Translations under genes and position numbers: made by a program | Shown: positions 56,298 to 63,764 of the stretch, one piece after another | How positions within the stretch are numbered: the stretch's first letter is position 1 | Layout: the number at the start of each line of letters is the position of its first letter | Notes under the pieces: generated by a model | Database searches by the model: none | Told to the model about the DNA's origin: nothing | What the model saw: the letters and a program-made list of their open reading frames with translations, nothing else | From: Comamonadaceae bacterium | GTDB taxonomy: Bacteria > Pseudomonadota > Gammaproteobacteria > Burkholderiales > Burkholderiaceae_C | Length of the DNA: 64,000 nucleotides | Assembly (NCBI GenBank): GCA_027484105.1 | Contig: JAIXUG010000014.1 | Span: 1 to 64,000 of the forward strand | Direction: 5' to 3'

Positions 56298-57161
56298 ATG
56301 AACACTCAAGCCAAGCCCCCTTCTTTTCCACCCCAAAGGCCGCCTGGTGGATGGAAGTTGCCCGCTGTTTTGCCCATCACCTTCAAAAAACCTTTCGAAT
56401 GGTTGTGGATGGGGCTCAAAGACATGGGCCATTCGCCCTGGTTGAGCCTGATGCATGGCTTGGTGTTGGCATTGGGTGGTGGCTTGATCACTTGGCTGGC
56501 ACACGACCGGTTTTGGTTGCTGGCCGGTGCGGTATCGGGATTTTTGGTCGTGGCGCCGGTGTTGGCCACCAGTTTGTACGCGATGAGCCGCGCCATTGAG
56601 CGCAAGGAGGCTGTCAACTTCGGCTTGTTGATCCAAACCTGGACACGCTGGCAAACCCAGCGTTTCAATGAACCGGCAAGTTATTGGTGTCTGGTGCGCT
56701 TTGGGGTTTTGCTGGGCTTGGCCGGTACAGGCTGGGTGATGACCTCTTCGGCCTTGATCACCTTGTTGACACCCGAACCCGTTCAGACCCCCATGGATTT
56801 CATCCACCATGTGGTGCTCAGCCAAGAACACCATGTGTTTGAGTTGTGGTTGGTTCTGGGAGGCTTGCTGGCGGCTCCTGTTTTTGCGTCCAGTGTCGTG
56901 GCCATGCCTTTGCTGCTGGACCGCAAAGTCAACACTTTGCAAGCTGTCTTGATCAGTTGGAAAACGGCGTTGACCCACCCCTTGCCCATGGCTTTGTGGG
57001 CCCTGCTGATCATGGGCCTTAGTCTTTTTGGGGTGTTGATGCTGTTTGTGGGTCTGGTGCTGGTCGTGCCCATCCTAGGCCATGCGTCTTGGCACGCCTA
57101 CCGTGATTTGGTTGATACCAGCGATCTGGCCGAACGCACACCCAGCCAAGGGACCCTGTGA
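56298..57161 (+). CDS. DUF2189 family membrane protein
   Basis: 287-aa polytopic inner-membrane protein of unknown function. It has about six hydrophobic helices (for example LMHGLVLALGGGLITWLA, LLAGAVSGFLVVAPVLATSL, WALLIMGLSLFGVLMLFVGL) and the conserved PVLATSLYAMSRAIERKE and PILGHASWHAYRDLV segments of DUF2189. ATG 56298 was chosen as the first start after the terminator. The stop overlaps the next gene's start region. Confidence 0.88.
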   Translation: MNTQAKPPSFPPQRPPGGWKLPAVLPITFKKPFEWLWMGLKDMGHSPWLSLMHGLVLALGGGLITWLAHDRFWLLAGAVSGFLVVAPVLATSLYAMSRAIERKEAVNFGLLIQTWTRWQTQRFNEPASYWCLVRFGVLLGLAGTGWVMTSSALITLLTPEPVQTPMDFIHHVVLSQEHHVFELWLVLGGLLAAPVFASSVVAMPLLLDRKVNTLQAVLISWKTALTHPLPMALWALLIMGLSLFGVLMLFVGLVLVVPILGHASWHAYRDLVDTSDLAERTPSQGTL

Positions 57162-57370
57162 TGTGGGGTTTGACCGAGGAGCAATTTGCCTGGTTTGGTT
57201 TGACCATCGGTGTCACAGCTTTCATGCTGTACATGCTGTTCATCGTGCTGCAACTGGCTTGGGAATCTAAAGCTGGAAAATTTGGAACCTTTGTCATTTT
57301 CATTGGCTTGGCTTTTGGCATGTTGGGCTTTGTTGCCAAAGGCGTCATCCAGTGGTTGATTGACAAATAA
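57161..57370 (+). CDS. DUF2788 small membrane protein
   Basis: 69-aa protein with two membrane helices (FGLTIGVTAFMLYMLFIVLQL and FVIFIGLAFGMLGFVAKGV) around a short loop (ESKAGKFGT), the DUF2788 family layout; function unknown. ATG 57161 follows AGGGA; a GTG one codon earlier (57158) is the alternative. The A of its ATG is the last base of the DUF2189 stop codon, so the pair is coupled. Confidence 0.85.
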   Translation: MWGLTEEQFAWFGLTIGVTAFMLYMLFIVLQLAWESKAGKFGTFVIFIGLAFGMLGFVAKGVIQWLIDK

Positions 57371-57387
57371 TGGACACACAACAAGCC

Positions 57388-57602
57388 TGTGGATAGAAAC
57401 GGCATAACCAGCAACTTATCCACAGCTTGGTCCATTTTTCAAAAGTTGTTCATGAACCCACGACAGCACAAAAGCAGAGTCACACACAATTTCAAAAACC
57501 AGACAAGTGCTTGTCAATCATCAAGAAAAAGACCTTGTCCACAAGAACCTCCTGCCCCTACTACTACGACTAATTAAAGATATAAACCTATAGAGAGATA
57601 AC
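57388..57602. other. Candidate chromosomal replication origin (oriC)
   Basis: In the largest intergenic gap of the window: DnaA boxes TGTGGATAG (57388-57396, minus-strand box, one mismatch), TTATCCACA (57416-57424, perfect) and TTGTCCACA (57535-57543, one mismatch). After the last box come a GC-rich spacer (57547-57557), CTA-CTA-CTA-CGA-CTA trinucleotides (57558-57572) resembling DnaA-trios, and an AT-rich tract (57571-57602). This order (box, GC-rich, trios, AT-rich) is the basal unwinding layout described for bacterial origins. Sampled G/C counts change sign around this position. No dnaA, dnaN or gyrB is in the window. A DnaA-binding control site for min genes is the alternative. Confidence 0.6.
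57502..57515. repeat. Inverted repeat inside the oriC-like gap
   Basis: GACAAG-TG-CTTGTC, a 6-base inverted repeat with a two-base centre, 20 bp before the last DnaA box. The half GACAAGTG recurs at 57608-57615, upstream of minC. Role unknown; could be a regulator site for minC or an origin-binding protein. Confidence 0.35.
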
Positions 57603-57653
57603 AAGCGACAAGTGCACTGTTAAGATTTGCACCTTTCCAACCCCAACAGCACC

Positions 57654-58436
57654 ATGGCGATCGTTTCAGAAGACCCTTCCTCCAGCTGTTACGACATCAA
57701 AAGCGCAGATCTGTCCTTGGTGGCTTTGGTCCTCAAAACCCATGACGTGACGCTGGTGAATGCCGCTTTGAAGCGCCAAATGGACGAAAGTCCCGGGTTT
57801 TTTGACCAAGATCCTGTGTTGATCGATGTCAGCCACCTTGAAAGCGATCCCGAAGTCCAGGACTTGGCAACTTTGATGGGCGTCCTGCGTGACCATGGAT
57901 TGGTTCCTTTGGCCATCAAAGGGGCCAAAGGCGCGTTTTTGGAACAAGCCAGGGGTCTGGGCTTGGTTGATGCCTCAGATGCCCGCATTCGGCGTTCTGT
58001 TCAATTGGCCGACATGTCTGCACCCGCTGTGCAGGTGGAGCCCAGTGCTGCATCTCAGCCATCTTTGCCAGCAGCACCGCCCGTGGCTTTGGAAGCGATG
58101 GTGATCGACAAGCCTTTGCGCTCAGGTCAACAGGTGTATGCCAAAGGGCGTGACCTGATTGTCATGGCCATGGTCAATGCAGGGGCTGAAGTCATTGCCG
58201 ATGGGCATATCCATGTGTATGCCCCTTTGCGTGGCAAAGCCATTGCGGGTGCAAGAGGCAACACCCAAGCCAAAATTTTTGCTTTGGTCATGGAGCCTGA
58301 GCTCATTTCGATTGCGGGTGTTTACCGCACCAGTGAAAATCCGCTGTCCCAAGATGTTTTGGGCAAAACAGCCCAGGTCAGTTTGCAGTCGGGTCCTGAA
58401 GGGGACAAGTTGCTGATCAAACCATTGAACCCTTGA
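57654..58436 (+). CDS. minC: Septum site-determining protein MinC
   Basis: FtsZ polymerisation inhibitor that, with MinD and MinE, blocks division at the poles. The 260-aa product has an N-terminal FtsZ-binding domain (about 10-110), a Pro/Ala/Ser-rich linker (PSAASQPSLPAAPP) and a C-terminal beta-helix with the MinD-binding RSGQQVYAKGRDL and GAEVIADGHIHVY and GAR repeats. ATG 57654 gives normal length; the adjacent sequence upstream lacks a strong ribosome-binding site. minD follows after 36 bp. Confidence 0.95.
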   Translation: MAIVSEDPSSSCYDIKSADLSLVALVLKTHDVTLVNAALKRQMDESPGFFDQDPVLIDVSHLESDPEVQDLATLMGVLRDHGLVPLAIKGAKGAFLEQARGLGLVDASDARIRRSVQLADMSAPAVQVEPSAASQPSLPAAPPVALEAMVIDKPLRSGQQVYAKGRDLIVMAMVNAGAEVIADGHIHVYAPLRGKAIAGARGNTQAKIFALVMEPELISIAGVYRTSENPLSQDVLGKTAQVSLQSGPEGDKLLIKPLNP

Positions 58437-58472: not shown

Positions 58473-59288
58473 ATGACAAAAATCATTGTTGTGACTTCTG
58501 GCAAAGGCGGCGTGGGCAAAACCACGACCAGTGCCAGTTTTGCCTCTGGCCTGGCCTTGAGAGGTTTCAAGACCGCAGTCATTGACTTTGATGTGGGTTT
58601 GCGCAATCTGGACCTGATCATGGGATGTGAGCGCCGTGTGGTGTACGACCTGATCAATGTGATTCAGGGCGAAGCCAATTTGAACCAGGCACTGATCAAG
58701 GACAAGCAGTGCGATAACTTGTTTGTGTTGGCCGCTTCCCAAACCCGGGACAAGGATGCTTTGACCCAAGAAGGTGTTGAAAAAGTCTTGAACGATCTGA
58801 GTGGCATGGGTTTCGAGTACATCGTGTGTGACTCGCCAGCCGGCATTGAAACCGGTGCCTTGATGGCCATGCACTTTGCCGACGAAGCTTTGGTGGTGAC
58901 CAATCCTGAAGTGTCTTCGGTGCGCGACTCAGACCGCATTTTGGGCATGCTCGGCAGCAAGACCAAGCGTGCCATTGAGGGTCTGGAGCCCATCAAGGAG
59001 CATTTGCTCATCACGCGCTACAACCCCAGCCGCGTGGAAGAAGGTCAGATGCTGTCGCTGCAAGACATCCAGGACATCTTGCGCATCAAGCTTTTGGGTG
59101 TGATTCCCGAAAGCGAAAACGTTTTGCAGGCATCCAACCAGGGCACACCGGCTATCCACATGGCCAACAGCGATGTGTCTGAAGCCTACAAAGATGTGAT
59201 TGACCGCTTTTTGGGTGAAGACAAGCCGATGCGTTTCATTGACGCCGAGAAGCCCGGTTTCTTCAAACGTCTTTTTGGAGGCAAGTGA
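58473..59288 (+). CDS. minD: Septum site-determining ATPase MinD
   Basis: Membrane-cycling ATPase that recruits MinC. The 271-aa product has the deviant Walker A KGGVGKTT (K11 and K16), the switch I FDVGLRNLDL, the switch II CDSPAGIE and a C-terminal amphipathic membrane-targeting helix (FFKRLFGG). minE begins 3 bp after the stop. Confidence 0.98.
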   Translation: MTKIIVVTSGKGGVGKTTTSASFASGLALRGFKTAVIDFDVGLRNLDLIMGCERRVVYDLINVIQGEANLNQALIKDKQCDNLFVLAASQTRDKDALTQEGVEKVLNDLSGMGFEYIVCDSPAGIETGALMAMHFADEALVVTNPEVSSVRDSDRILGMLGSKTKRAIEGLEPIKEHLLITRYNPSRVEEGQMLSLQDIQDILRIKLLGVIPESENVLQASNQGTPAIHMANSDVSEAYKDVIDRFLGEDKPMRFIDAEKPGFFKRLFGGK

Positions 59289-59291
59289 GCC

Positions 59292-59552
59292 ATGTCTTTT
59301 CTTTCCTTCCTCCTGGGTGAAAAGAAGAAAACAGCGAGCGTCGCCAAAGAGCGCTTGCAAATCATCTTGGCCCATGAACGCAGTGGCCGCAATGTGGCCG
59401 AACCCGATTACCTGCCCGATTTGCAACGCGAATTGGTGGCCGTGATCAGCAAATACATCAAGATCAATCCGGATGACATCAAGGTCAATCTGGAGCGCCA
59501 GGACAACCTGGAGGTGCTCGAAGTCAAGATCGAATTGCCAGATGCCCGTTGA
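59292..59552 (+). CDS. minE: Cell division topological specificity factor MinE
   Basis: 86-aa activator of MinD ATPase that drives pole-to-pole oscillation. It has the N-terminal membrane-targeting segment ([13 protein letters not shown]), the MinD-contact helix ([15 protein letters not shown]) and the C-terminal topological domain ([16 protein letters not shown]). It ends the min operon and is followed by a strong terminator. Confidence 0.97.
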
Positions 59553-59597: not shown

Positions 59598-59632
59598 AAA
59601 AAAGCCACCTTTTCAGGTGGCTTTCTTTTTGT
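59598..59632. terminator. Bidirectional Rho-independent terminator between minE and ior
   Basis: Perfect 10-base stem AAAGCCACCT (59601-59610) and AGGTGGCTTT (59615-59624) with a TTTC loop, A-tract before and CTTTTT after. The A/T tracts on both sides make it work for minCDE and for the convergent indolepyruvate oxidoreductase gene, whose stop codon abuts it. Confidence 0.92.
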
Positions 59633-62600
59633 TAACGCTCAGCCAATGAAGCCCACAATGCCCTGGCGGCACGGATGTTGCGCTCTTTGACGTGACCAAA
59701 ACCCTTGATGGTTTCGGGCACACGGGCCACTTCCACGGCGTGGGCATGGGTGCTGTCCGACAACTTGCTCAGTACCCGGTCGATGTGCTGCATGTATTCA
59801 CGGATCAAGGCGCGTTCGGTCAAGCGTTCTTCGGTTTTGCCAAACACATCCAGCGCCGTGCCACGCAGGCCTTTGAGTTTGGCCAGAATTTTGAAGCCGG
59901 TCAGCATGGCAGGACCAAACTTGCGCTTGACCAGTTCACCCTTGTCATTGCGCTTGGACCACAGGGGTGGCGCCAAGTGGTAATTCACGGTGAAGTCGCC
60001 TTCAAAGCTGTCGTGGATGCGCTGTAAAAAACCAGTTTGGGTGTGCAAGCGGGCCACCTCGTACTCGTCTTTGTAGGCCATGAGTTTGTACAAATGGCGT
60101 GCCACGGTTTCGCTCAGGATGGTTTTGCCCAAAGGGGCTTCTGTGCTGCGCACGCGTTCCACAATGTTTTGGTAAAGCTGCGCATAGGTGGCGTTTTGGT
60201 AGTCCGTCAACCGTGCCATGCGGTTGGCCACGATGTCTTCCAGGCTGTCGCGCTTTTTGAAGTGGACCACTTGCGCTGGGCGCATGAGTTGCATCAAGGC
60301 ATCGGGTTGGTGCGCGGCATGGCGTCCCCACTCAAAGGCGGCCAGGTTGTTTTGGACCTGCACATCGTTGAGCTCGATGGCGCGCACCAGCGACTCGCGG
60401 TGCAAAGGCACCCAACCCTTTTGCCAGGCGTAGCCCAGGATCATCGGGTTGACGTAAATCGTGTCGCCCATGAGCTGTTTGGCCAGGGCATCGGCATCGA
60501 AGCTGCCCACACCGTCCAGGCCCACTTGTGCCGTGATTTCGGCCACGCATTGTTCGGCCGGGTTTTGCCAGTTGCCGTTTTTCACAAAGGCCGCGGTGGG
60601 GGTGCTGTTGCTGTTCAGCGCCACACGGGTGCGGCCCGCGCGCATGCGCAAGGTGGTTTCCTTGGACGCGCTGACGATCGGGTCACAGCCGATGATGAGA
60701 TCAGCCGCCGCCATGCTCACGCGGGTGGTGCGGATCTCGTTTTGCGTGTTGGCAATCAGGATGTGGCTCCAGGTCGCGCCGCCTTTTTGAGCCAGGCCCG
60801 CCGAGTCTTGCGTGACGATGCCTTTGCCTTCCATGTGCGCCGCCATGCCCAGCAACTGGCCGATGGTGATGACGCCGGTGCCACCCACCCCGGCGACCAC
60901 GGTGCCCCAAGGCACGGAGATGGTCGGCAAAATGGGCTCGGGCAAAACGCCCAAGCTGGCGGGGTTGATGGTGGTGGAGGCAGAGGCCGATTTCTTTTTG
61001 AAGGTCCCGCCTTCCACGGTCACAAAGCTCGGGCAAAAGCCCTTGAGGCAGCTGGTGTCCTTGTTGCAGGTGCTTTGGTTGATGGTGCGCTTGCGGCCAA
61101 GTTCTGTTTCCAGCGGTTCGACCGACAAACAGTTCGATTGCACGCCACAGTCGCCACAACCCTCGCACACTTCTTCGTTGATCATCACGCGCACGGCAGG
61201 GTCCACCATGGTGCCGCGCTTGCGTCGGCGGCGTTTTTCGGTGGCGCAGGTTTGGTCGTAAATGATGACGGTGGTGCCTTTGATCTCGCGCATTTCGCGC
61301 TGGATGCGGTCGAGTTCATCGCGGTGGAACACGCGCACACCTTCGGCCAAAGCGACGCCTTGGTATTTTTCGGGTTCGTCGGTCACCACCACAATGCGCT
61401 GTGCACCTTCGGCCTTCATGCTCATGGCGATTTGCACCACGCTGTGGCCTTCGGCGCGTTCACCGACGGGTTGGCCACCGGTCATGGCCACGGCGTCGTT
61501 GTACAAAATCTTGTAGGTGATGTTCACGCCCGAGGCGACGCTCTGGCGCACGGCCAGGATGCCGCTGTGAAAGTAGGTGCCGTCACCGATGTTGGCAAAG
61601 ATGTGCTGGTCGGTGCTGAAGGGTTGCTGGCCTGTCCAAGGCACACCTTCGCCGCCCATTTGTGTGAAGCCCACGGTGCTGCGGTCCATCCAGATGCTCA
61701 TGAAATGGCAGCCAATGCCCGCCATGGCGCGAGAACCTTCGGGCACCTTGGTGGAGGTGTTGTGTGGGCAGCCTGAGCAAAACCAGGGCTGGCGCTCGGC
61801 GGCCGCGCCCAGGGTGAGGGCTTTCATGGCCTGCTCTTTGCCATCCAGGATGGCCAAGTGCGCGTCGATGCGGGCGGTGGTGTCGGCATCGATGCCCAGC
61901 TTTTTCAGGCGCTTGGCGATGGCGCGCGCGATGATGGCGGGCGTCAGGTCGGCGTTGGCGCGCAGCAAGGTGCGTTCGGTCGGGTTGGGAATGGACCACT
62001 CGCCGCCAGACACATCGCCATCGGCTTCGTCGAACTTGCCCAAAATGTTTGGGCGCACATCGTCGCGCCAGTTGTACAGCTCTTCTTTGAGTTGGTATTC
62101 GATGACCTGGCGTTTTTCTTCGACCACCAAGATCTCGCGCAAGCCGGTGGCGAATTCGCGGGTGGTTTGCGCTTCGAGCGGCCAGACCACGCCCACCTTG
62201 TGCAAGCGGATGCCCAGGCGTTGGCAAGTGGCATCGTCCAGCCCCAGGTCGAGCAGTGCCTGGCGTGTGTCGTTGAAGGCCTTGCCGCTTGCAATCAAGC
62301 CGAACCTATCATTCTGGCCCTGGATGACGTTGTGGTTGAGCTTGTTGGCGCGGATGTAGGCGAGAGCCGCGTACCACTTGTAGTCAAACAAACGCGCCTC
62401 TTGTTCGAGCGCGGTGTCGGGCCAGCGGATGTGCACACCACCGGGGGGCATGGCGAATTCGGGCAAGACGATGTGCACCCGCTCGGGGTCGATGTGGGCT
62501 GTGGCACTGGACTCGACGATCTCTTGAATCGTCTTCATCCCCGACCAGATGCCGGCATAACGGCTCAGCGCAATGGCGTGCAGGCCCTGGTCGAGGATGT

Positions 62601-63168
62601 CTTGCACACTGGCCGGAAAGAACACAGGCAGACCGCAGGCCTTGAAGATGTGGTCGCTCTGGTGCGCGGCGGTGGAGCTTTTGGCCACATGGTCATCGCC
62701 CGCCACGGCCAACACGCCGCCCCAGGGCGTGGTGCCGGCCATGTTGGCGTGTTTGAACACGTCCGAGCAGCGGTCCACGCCGGGGCCTTTGCCGTACCAG
62801 ATGCCGAACACACCATCGAACTTGTTGGTGCCAGGCGGTGCAAAACCCAGTTGTTGCGTGCCCCACAAGGCGGTGGCGGCCAGCTCTTCGTTCACGCCGG
62901 GCTGGAACAGGATGTGCTGCGCCTTCAGGTGGTCTTTGGCTTTCCACAGCGACTGGTCGTAGCTGCCAAAGGGCGAGCCCCGGTAACCGCTGATGAACCC
63001 GGCGGTGTTTTTGCCTTGCAGCGCGTCGCGTTGGCGCTGCAGCATCGGCAGTTTGACCAAGGCTTGCACACCACTCATGAAAGCGCGGCCGACATCGAGG
63101 CTGTACTTGTCGTCCAGTGTCACCGTTTCAAGAGCTTGTCGAATCGAATCGGGCAAGGGGGCGTTCAT
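59632..63168 (-). CDS. Indolepyruvate ferredoxin oxidoreductase, fused single-chain form
   Basis: 1178-aa thiamine-diphosphate enzyme that oxidatively decarboxylates aryl-pyruvates to aryl-acetyl-CoA with ferredoxin, here with all domains in one chain. In order: N-terminal pyrimidine-type TPP domain (GFISGYRGSPFGSYD), C-terminal TPP domain with the GDGTYFH motif, an Fe-S cysteine cluster (CEGCGDC, then a CNKDTSCLKGFC group) and the gamma/POR domain (AGVGGTGVITIGQLLG; DSAGLAQKGGA). It is divergent from an Lrp-type regulator. ATG 63168 gives the conserved MNAPLP start; the open frame extends further but is not conserved. Confidence 0.93.
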   Translation of the reverse strand: MNAPLPDSIRQALETVTLDDKYSLDVGRAFMSGVQALVKLPMLQRQRDALQGKNTAGFISGYRGSPFGSYDQSLWKAKDHLKAQHILFQPGVNEELAATALWGTQQLGFAPPGTNKFDGVFGIWYGKGPGVDRCSDVFKHANMAGTTPWGGVLAVAGDDHVAKSSTAAHQSDHIFKACGLPVFFPASVQDILDQGLHAIALSRYAGIWSGMKTIQEIVESSATAHIDPERVHIVLPEFAMPPGGVHIRWPDTALEQEARLFDYKWYAALAYIRANKLNHNVIQGQNDRFGLIASGKAFNDTRQALLDLGLDDATCQRLGIRLHKVGVVWPLEAQTTREFATGLREILVVEEKRQVIEYQLKEELYNWRDDVRPNILGKFDEADGDVSGGEWSIPNPTERTLLRANADLTPAIIARAIAKRLKKLGIDADTTARIDAHLAILDGKEQAMKALTLGAAAERQPWFCSGCPHNTSTKVPEGSRAMAGIGCHFMSIWMDRSTVGFTQMGGEGVPWTGQQPFSTDQHIFANIGDGTYFHSGILAVRQSVASGVNITYKILYNDAVAMTGGQPVGERAEGHSVVQIAMSMKAEGAQRIVVVTDEPEKYQGVALAEGVRVFHRDELDRIQREMREIKGTTVIIYDQTCATEKRRRRKRGTMVDPAVRVMINEEVCEGCGDCGVQSNCLSVEPLETELGRKRTINQSTCNKDTSCLKGFCPSFVTVEGGTFKKKSASASTTINPASLGVLPEPILPTISVPWGTVVAGVGGTGVITIGQLLGMAAHMEGKGIVTQDSAGLAQKGGATWSHILIANTQNEIRTTRVSMAAADLIIGCDPIVSASKETTLRMRAGRTRVALNSNSTPTAAFVKNGNWQNPAEQCVAEITAQVGLDGVGSFDADALAKQLMGDTIYVNPMILGYAWQKGWVPLHRESLVRAIELNDVQVQNNLAAFEWGRHAAHQPDALMQLMRPAQVVHFKKRDSLEDIVANRMARLTDYQNATYAQLYQNIVERVRSTEAPLGKTILSETVARHLYKLMAYKDEYEVARLHTQTGFLQRIHDSFEGDFTVNYHLAPPLWSKRNDKGELVKRKFGPAMLTGFKILAKLKGLRGTALDVFGKTEERLTERALIREYMQHIDRVLSKLSDSTHAHAVEVARVPETIKGFGHVKERNIRAARALWASLAER

Positions 63169-63296
63169 GGTCTGTTCTGCAACTGAGATGGATGACACAG
63201 TGTAGGGCGGCACAGCCGACAAGTGCTTGCTTTGTGCGACAGGATTTGCCCTATGATTTGGAAGAATCTTGCTCAAAAGGTGGTGTTTTGGAAACA

Positions 63297-63764
63297 ATGG
63301 ATAAATTTGATTGGGCCATATTGAACGAACTTCAAAGCAATGGCCGCCTGACCAATGCCGAACTGGCACAGCGCGTGGGCTTGTCGGCGGCACCTTGTTG
63401 GCGGCGGGTGCGCGCCCTGGAGGAGTCGGGTGTGATCAAGGGCTACCGCGCCGAGATTGACCGGCAAAAGGTGGGGCTGGATGTGCTGGCCTTTGTGCGC
63501 CTGGATGCTGAGCGCAACCGGGGCGACATCACGCGCCAGTTGGAAGAAGCGATTCAGAAAATTCCCGAGGTGGTGTCTTGCCATTACATCAGCGGCACCG
63601 GCACCTTTGAGCTACAGGTGGTCAGCAAAGATCTGAACACCTTCAGCCAGTTTGCACGCGATGTGTTGATCAACTTGCCCAACGTGAAAGACCTGCACAC
63701 CAGCTTTTCATTGGGCGAGGTCAAGGCCTCAGGGGCCTTGCCTTTGCAGGGGAACAAACGGTGA
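63297..63764 (+). CDS. Lrp/AsnC family regulator
   Basis: 155-aa regulator with an N-terminal HTH (LTNAELAQRVGLSAAPCWRRVRAL) and a C-terminal RAM/ligand domain (VPEVVSCHYISGTGTF-like segment, here KIPEVVSCHYISGTGTF). ATG 63297 is used; a TTG nine bases upstream follows AAAGGTGG and may be the true start. It is divergent from the oxidoreductase gene across 128 bp, the usual arrangement for control of branched-chain or aromatic amino-acid catabolism by its adjacent regulator. Confidence 0.92.
   Translation: MDKFDWAILNELQSNGRLTNAELAQRVGLSAAPCWRRVRALEESGVIKGYRAEIDRQKVGLDVLAFVRLDAERNRGDITRQLEEAIQKIPEVVSCHYISGTGTFELQVVSKDLNTFSQFARDVLINLPNVKDLHTSFSLGEVKASGALPLQGNKR

Follow-up and report, generated by a model that had tools for sequence, protein, structure and literature searches.

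Does the intergenic gap in front of minC in a freshwater bacterium hold the chromosomal replication origin, at a distance from dnaA, or a DnaA-dependent switch for the min genes? The gap lies in a window of 64,000 nucleotides (the whole stretch of DNA that we analysed), which is the first 64 kb of a 181-kb contig (C14) in a 3.10-Mb draft genome of 29 contigs. A search of a genome collection returned Limnohabitans as the closest named relatives of the minC of the window, and on this sequence evidence the source is a Limnohabitans-type freshwater bacterium. An initial annotation of the window had proposed an origin in the gap, with a switch for the min genes as the rival. Our comparisons indicate that the gap is very probably the oriC of this bacterium, located away from dnaA. 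The reading draws on the elements in the gap, their conservation, a switch in GC skew, nearby parS sites and the persistence of the module in genomes without min genes.

Limnohabitans is a common freshwater genus, and placement of its origin beside minCDE, not dnaA, would change genome linearisation, metagenomic origin-to-terminus growth estimates and gene-dosage arguments for the genus. Origin-prediction software is described as using dnaA as its default indicator gene (PMC10225481). A search of the open-licence literature, by titles and the openings of abstracts, found no published work on the Limnohabitans origin or on moving origins in its family.

The gap before minC contains an ordered set of origin-like elements

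The gap of 283 bp (57371–57653) separates a gene for a DUF2788 small protein (57158–57370, + strand; Pfam), the left neighbour of the origin module, from minC (57654–58436, + strand; TIGR01222, above cut-off), for which we chose the start at 57654 over the mechanical ORF start at 57627. It is followed by minD (58473–59288, + strand; TIGR01968, above cut-off), minE (59292–59552, + strand; Pfam PF03776) and, on the − strand, a gene of the indolepyruvate ferredoxin oxidoreductase family (IOR; 59632–63393; NCBIfam), which normally follows minE. There are no tRNA genes in the 64-kb window. The dnaA gene of the same genome (TIGR00362) lies on a separate 109-kb contig (C24), with dnaN (NCBIfam) behind it. 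Elsewhere in the genome (C10, 53375–54019) the DnaA model gives weak hits, one of them interrupted by a stop, perhaps from an Hda- or DnaA-like ATPase.

The gap contains three DnaA boxes. Box 1 (57388–57396, − strand, CTATCCACA, at most one mismatch) is the left arm of an inverted pair, and its position reads TTATCCACA in most loci of the genus. Box 2 (57416–57424, + strand) is a perfect TTATCCACA and starts 28 bp past the start of box 1, while box 3 (57535–57543, + strand, TTGTCCACA, at most one mismatch) adjoins the putative unwinding side. Box 3 is followed by a GC-rich spacer of 14 bases (57544–57557, + strand, AGAACCTCCTGCCC, GC 0.64), by DnaA-trios (57558–57572, + strand, CTACTACTACGACTA), which are 3′-GAT-5′ repeats on the opposite strand, and by an AT-rich tract (57573–57610, + strand, GC 0.29), which is probably the start of the unwound region. 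The one perfect and two near-perfect boxes, the GC-rich spacer, the CTA trios and the AT-rich tract reported in the initial annotation are all in place.

The rule published for searches of the basal unwinding system (BUS) specifies a spacer of at most 16 bases, most commonly 13, and at least three trios with the consensus 3′-GAT-5′ (PMC8287927). The gap, with a box, a 14-base spacer and at least three trios on the correct strand, conforms to this rule, so the earlier suggestion that the order of its elements matches the box, spacer and DnaA-trio unwinding module holds. The boxes form a cluster within an intergenic region, as in an oriC. A single box of this quality (no more than one mismatch) is nothing unusual: the window has 10, where 5.8 are expected, and 8 of 100 shuffles contain at least as many. 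The cluster is the rare feature, for none of 200 order-1 Markov simulations of the window placed three such boxes in 283 bp (31 of 200 had two), and none had a box with three CTA/TTA trios no more than 16 bases on.

To describe the module as a whole, we used a sequence-only model of 217 positions (R1), made from 28 aligned modules of which the window is one row. The match to R1 spans 57383–57597 (+ strand), and in the 3.10-Mb source genome this module (E = 5.8e-40) is the only match listed at E ≤ 0.001 under strict filters. The distances between box starts, 28 and 118–119 bp, are kept in most loci of the genus and in many loci of other genera.

The alignment suggests two further elements between box 2 and box 3. 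A possible weak DnaA box (57446–57454, + strand, TTGTTCATG) has four mismatches, and some aligned rows from other genera have TTATCCAGA, TTATCCCC or TTGTCCACA at this place. A possible IHF-type bending site (57504–57516, − strand; CAAGTGCTTGTCA as read on the + strand) has two mismatches to the IHF consensus, against which all modules were scored. At this fixed place, 22 of the 28 aligned modules have at most two mismatches and 9 have at most one; in other 14-offset blocks of the same alignment, the best IHF match averages 3.3–4.3 mismatches per row. The aligned modules have a YAANNNNTTG-type sequence in common, located between the weak box and box 3. We regard the IHF-like site as a possible lead.

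The module is conserved in the genus and persists without min genes

From the genome collection we obtained 42 minC loci, 38 of Limnohabitans type and 4 distant. A box near the place of box 2 is present in 38 of the 38 Limnohabitans-type loci, as is a trio alongside this central box, and 34 of the 38 have all three boxes (at most one mismatch) together with the trio. Neither boxes nor trio were found in the 4 distant loci. In G087, of the same genus, the boxes lie at −1090, −1062 and −943. The comparison of the same gap among relatives, which the initial annotation had called for, shows that close relatives retain both boxes and trios.

Furthermore, the exact inverted box pair occurs in 75 of 90 genomes of the genus, and a reversed control pattern in 0 of 90. 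A MinD match (E ≤ 1e-60) is present in 64 of the 90. The pair and MinD occur together in 61 genomes. In 59 of these they share a contig, and there the pair without exception begins 1046–1117 bp upstream of minD; these 59 overlap with the 38 named loci, so that not all are independent. The position next to minC is common to the genus and not peculiar to the source genome.

A constant position upstream of minC is also what a regulatory site would occupy. DnaA regulates genes in other bacteria, and through these boxes DnaA-ATP might turn minCDE down or up in the course of the cell cycle, with the origin elsewhere. The gap is the upstream region of minC, the pair stands before minC and minD in 59 of 59 testable genomes, and the exact pair is present in 61 of 64 genomes with MinD against 14 of 26 without. 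However, those 14 MinD-less genomes keep the exact pair, so the module is not restricted to the company of min genes, as a DnaA-regulated min promoter would be. Because genomes without minD retain the module, we consider a main role as a min switch, the rival named in the initial annotation, very unlikely; a dual role, of an origin that also affects min expression, is possible.

The MinD-less genomes (no match at E ≤ 1e-60) number 26 of 90 in the genus and 12 of 56 among those of high quality, and 6 of these 12 keep the exact pair. In a search for the exact form only, the pair is absent from 15 of the 90 genomes, namely 3 of 64 with MinD and 12 of 26 without, which indicates that it is rarer or more diverged where min was lost. 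At five loci that we examined among the 14 MinD-less genomes with the exact pair (G128, G137, G145, G146 and G150), the IOR gene lies beside the module in every case, which again argues against a min switch. The DUF2788 gene is the left neighbour in 2 of the 5 within the flanks available, and the trio is present in 4 of 5, namely in all those whose relevant strand was read (all but G146). At these loci the min genes have apparently been lost from between the origin and the IOR gene. Since MinD-less loci keep the module, and since one of them (G128) has a skew turn and parS sites there, the module can persist without min genes; it is kept in relatives whatever the neighbouring genes, with the exact pair rarer in MinD-less genomes. 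Such genomes make it easier, even without experiment, to tell a role as origin from one in min regulation.

GC skew and parS sites point to the module and not to dnaA

In the source genome, the cumulative GC skew of contig C14 reaches its minimum at window position 56396, ~1 kb to the left of box 1, and climbs from there to ~110 kb. Beyond that point the skew is mixed, and strongly negative near 116–120 kb, possibly because of an inversion, acquired DNA or a join made in assembly. On contig C24 the skew is mostly negative on both sides of dnaA; it is positive locally, over the operon, and there is no lasting switch.

A negative-to-positive turn at the module is present in 6 of 6 Limnohabitans tested (the source genome, G127, G087, G128, G140 and G124, the last five judged by 20-kb flanks). 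No such turn occurs at dnaA in any of five (G127, G128, G140, G124 and, at the 20-kb scale, the source genome); G087 was left out of this count because just one stretch over its dnaA was read. In particular, G127, a single contig of 3,372,992 bp, has its module at 3.140 Mb and its dnaA at 2.852 Mb, 287 kb apart. In 20 sampled stretches, its skew is positive from the module onwards, where the samples reach 3.16 Mb, and again over the first 1.26 Mb of the contig; between 1.44 Mb and the module it is mostly negative (two samples about zero, one slightly positive). The flanks of its dnaA, +0.020 in the left 20 kb and −0.011 on the other side, turn in the wrong direction. In Limnohabitans strain T6-20, dnaA is likewise distant, at about 180 kb. 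In the single-contig genome G128, it is the module (−0.013 / +0.046), not dnaA, at which the skew turns; G128 is MinD-less, which counts against a min switch.

The named loci agree. Flanks that are negative on the left and positive on the right occur in 33 of 38 Limnohabitans-type loci; of the five that fail, the failing side is short in L084, L096 and L101 and not short in L085 and L104. The mean cumulative skew of the 26 full-length named loci is lowest ~1 kb left of the first box. A skew minimum lies at the site, as at an oriC, with the opposite, terminus side sampled in the single-contig genome G127. Near the origin, KOPS-like octamers are too few to be informative; they switch sides near the G127 terminus. 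The skew minimum at the locus of the window and the switch at the module, not at dnaA, in G127 support the origin proposed in the initial annotation, as does the position of dnaA on a contig with no lasting skew turn.

Sites for parS were scored against the parS consensus. The source genome has two perfect and two near-perfect 16-mers at C14 75195–76443, ~18 kb from the module, and none on its 109-kb dnaA contig. Three or four parS each lie within 7–11 kb of the module in G128, G140, G124, G087 and G127, those of G128 at 7–8 kb. Across these six Limnohabitans the distance from parS to module is 7–19 kb, and no parS was found in the dnaA stretches read. parS sites are described as located near oriC (PMC7022226), and the module has them in what would be its origin domain. 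A promoter switch for min would leave both the skew turn and the parS sites unexplained.

The same observations bear on a second alternative, that replication starts at dnaA and that the module before minC is a DnaA reservoir or reactivation site, of which datA and DARS are the E. coli examples. There is a perfect box upstream of dnaA in the source genome, and 15 of 23 dnaA loci have two boxes ~50–60 bp apart in front of the gene (C24, 90115 in the source genome); in 5 of the 8 others the upstream DNA is too short to judge. But none of the five Limnohabitans judged has a negative-to-positive skew switch at dnaA, and the dnaA stretches of six are free of parS. The upstream stretch in the source genome has, by eye, no run of CTA trios after a box, and R1 lists no second match in that genome. 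DnaA boxes upstream of dnaA fit autoregulation of the gene, which is probably what this pair serves. We regard an origin at dnaA as extremely unlikely.

Predicted initiation at the module and its likeness to known origins

If the gap is the oriC, binding of DnaA and IHF, unwinding and initiation at the module may be pictured by analogy with other bacteria. DnaA would bind the inverted box pair and box 3, and bending at the IHF-like site would perhaps bring the boxes together. An ATP-dependent DnaA filament would then start at box 3, cross the GC-rich spacer and reach the CTA trios. The AT-rich tract would open to the right, the helicase would be loaded, and replication would be bidirectional, with minCDE transcribed codirectionally with the right fork.

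The elements can be compared with those of two known systems. With the BUS of bacterial oriC, as set out for B. subtilis and in a survey (PMC8287927), the gap shares the box, a spacer (here of 14 bases), at least three 3′-GAT-5′ trios on the matching strand and an AT-rich continuation. It differs from B. subtilis in having one strong box by the trios, not the pair #6/#7, with the inverted pair ~119 bp further off. The likeness to E. coli oriC lies in an origin apart from dnaA, in boxes of varied strength by an AT-rich region and in the possible IHF-type site between boxes. E. coli oriC lies between mioC and gidA, away from dnaA, whereas the neighbours here are the DUF2788 gene and minC, and the CTA trios lie to the right of box 3. 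In E. coli, IHF bending is described as bringing boxes to the unwinding region (PMC10225481).

The module occupies varied sites across the family

R1 matches were found in 284 of 299 family genomes and 135 of 141 genera. Matches to the rows of the model carry no weight, since it was built partly from loci of the genus; the matches in G127 (E = 4.6e-39), G128 (3.0e-31) and G124 (1.7e-35) come from genomes whose contigs correspond in length to none of those rows. All 40 near-complete family genomes (1–3 contigs) have a match. The module lies within 1 kb of dnaA in 13 of these, within 2 kb of minD in 9, including three Limnohabitans, and elsewhere in 18, including the MinD-less Limnohabitans G128. 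The count takes one copy per genome and linear distances, and in G209, G358 and G004 the copy is not the best-scoring one; with best-scoring copies, the numbers are 12, 8 and 20 of 40.

Because placement varies so widely over the 40 genomes, it is the module itself, and not a neighbouring gene, that is conserved. The expectation in the initial annotation that oriC stands beside dnaA in most related genomes does not agree with 13 of 40 (12 by best copy), and the 18 modules near neither min nor dnaA speak against a min switch. Where the module lies in the dnaA–dnaN gap, it is found by the same 217-position model; it stands there directly behind dnaA, and here before minC. Its function there would be that of an origin, though 7 of 8 such modules did not pass the local skew test.

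These local tests, made outside the genus with 20-kb flanks, gave a mixed picture. Of 8 genomes with the module away from dnaA, 5 have a skew turn at the module (G372, G072, G018, G007 and G079, but not G304, G026 and G003), and no negative-to-positive turn occurs at dnaA in any of 7 (G079, with one dnaA side read, left out). In genomes with the module at dnaA, it turns there in 1 of 8 (G262, but not G099, G017, G056, G049, G264, G091 and G358). In the first group, 4 of 8 have parS no more than 20 kb from the module (G372, G072, G026 and G079), and in the second none of 7 (G358 left out). Specifically, G079 has its module 138 kb from dnaA, a skew of −0.042 / +0.058, and parS 17–20 kb to the right. 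Among flanking genes in other genera, 8 of 10 had no match to an NCBIfam name.

We lean slightly towards the view that oriC in Comamonadaceae and their kin is a compact, portable module of ~215 bp with nearly fixed internal spacing, repeatedly relocated, mostly within 15–290 kb of dnaA, and placed behind dnaA, before minC or beside unrelated genes. Genomes with two complete modules, each maintained separately, would be intermediates or have bipartite origins, and Limnohabitans would be one settled outcome. Because the tests outside the genus are mixed, this family-wide claim is weaker than the claim for the genus. A family-wide module with varied sites and double copies offers a natural series for the study of origin movement.

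Two or three module matches occur in 15 of the 40 near-complete genomes. Together with the memory that skew retains of past origins, these would suit the idea that the module is the remnant of an earlier origin and that replication now begins at a different site that has gone unrecognised. This is scarcely credible, given boxes and trio that are conserved while many bases between them vary, the presence of the central box and a trio in all 38 loci, and one listed module in the source genome. We rejected a main role as a min switch, an origin at dnaA and a relic origin.

Within Limnohabitans, PBBC1 (L092) and WS1 (L115) have a second complete module on the other strand, ~5.56 kb left of the first and ~5.8 kb left of minC. 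The copies are 69% identical within a genome, and each is 97–98% identical to its counterpart in the other genome, which suggests that both are maintained. G130 and G133 have the same box pairs of 37 bases as PBBC1 and WS1 and are probably the same genomes. In G044 (contig C55), module matches at 68801–69015 (+ strand) and 72872–73085 (− strand) flank minD (70004–70816) on opposite strands.
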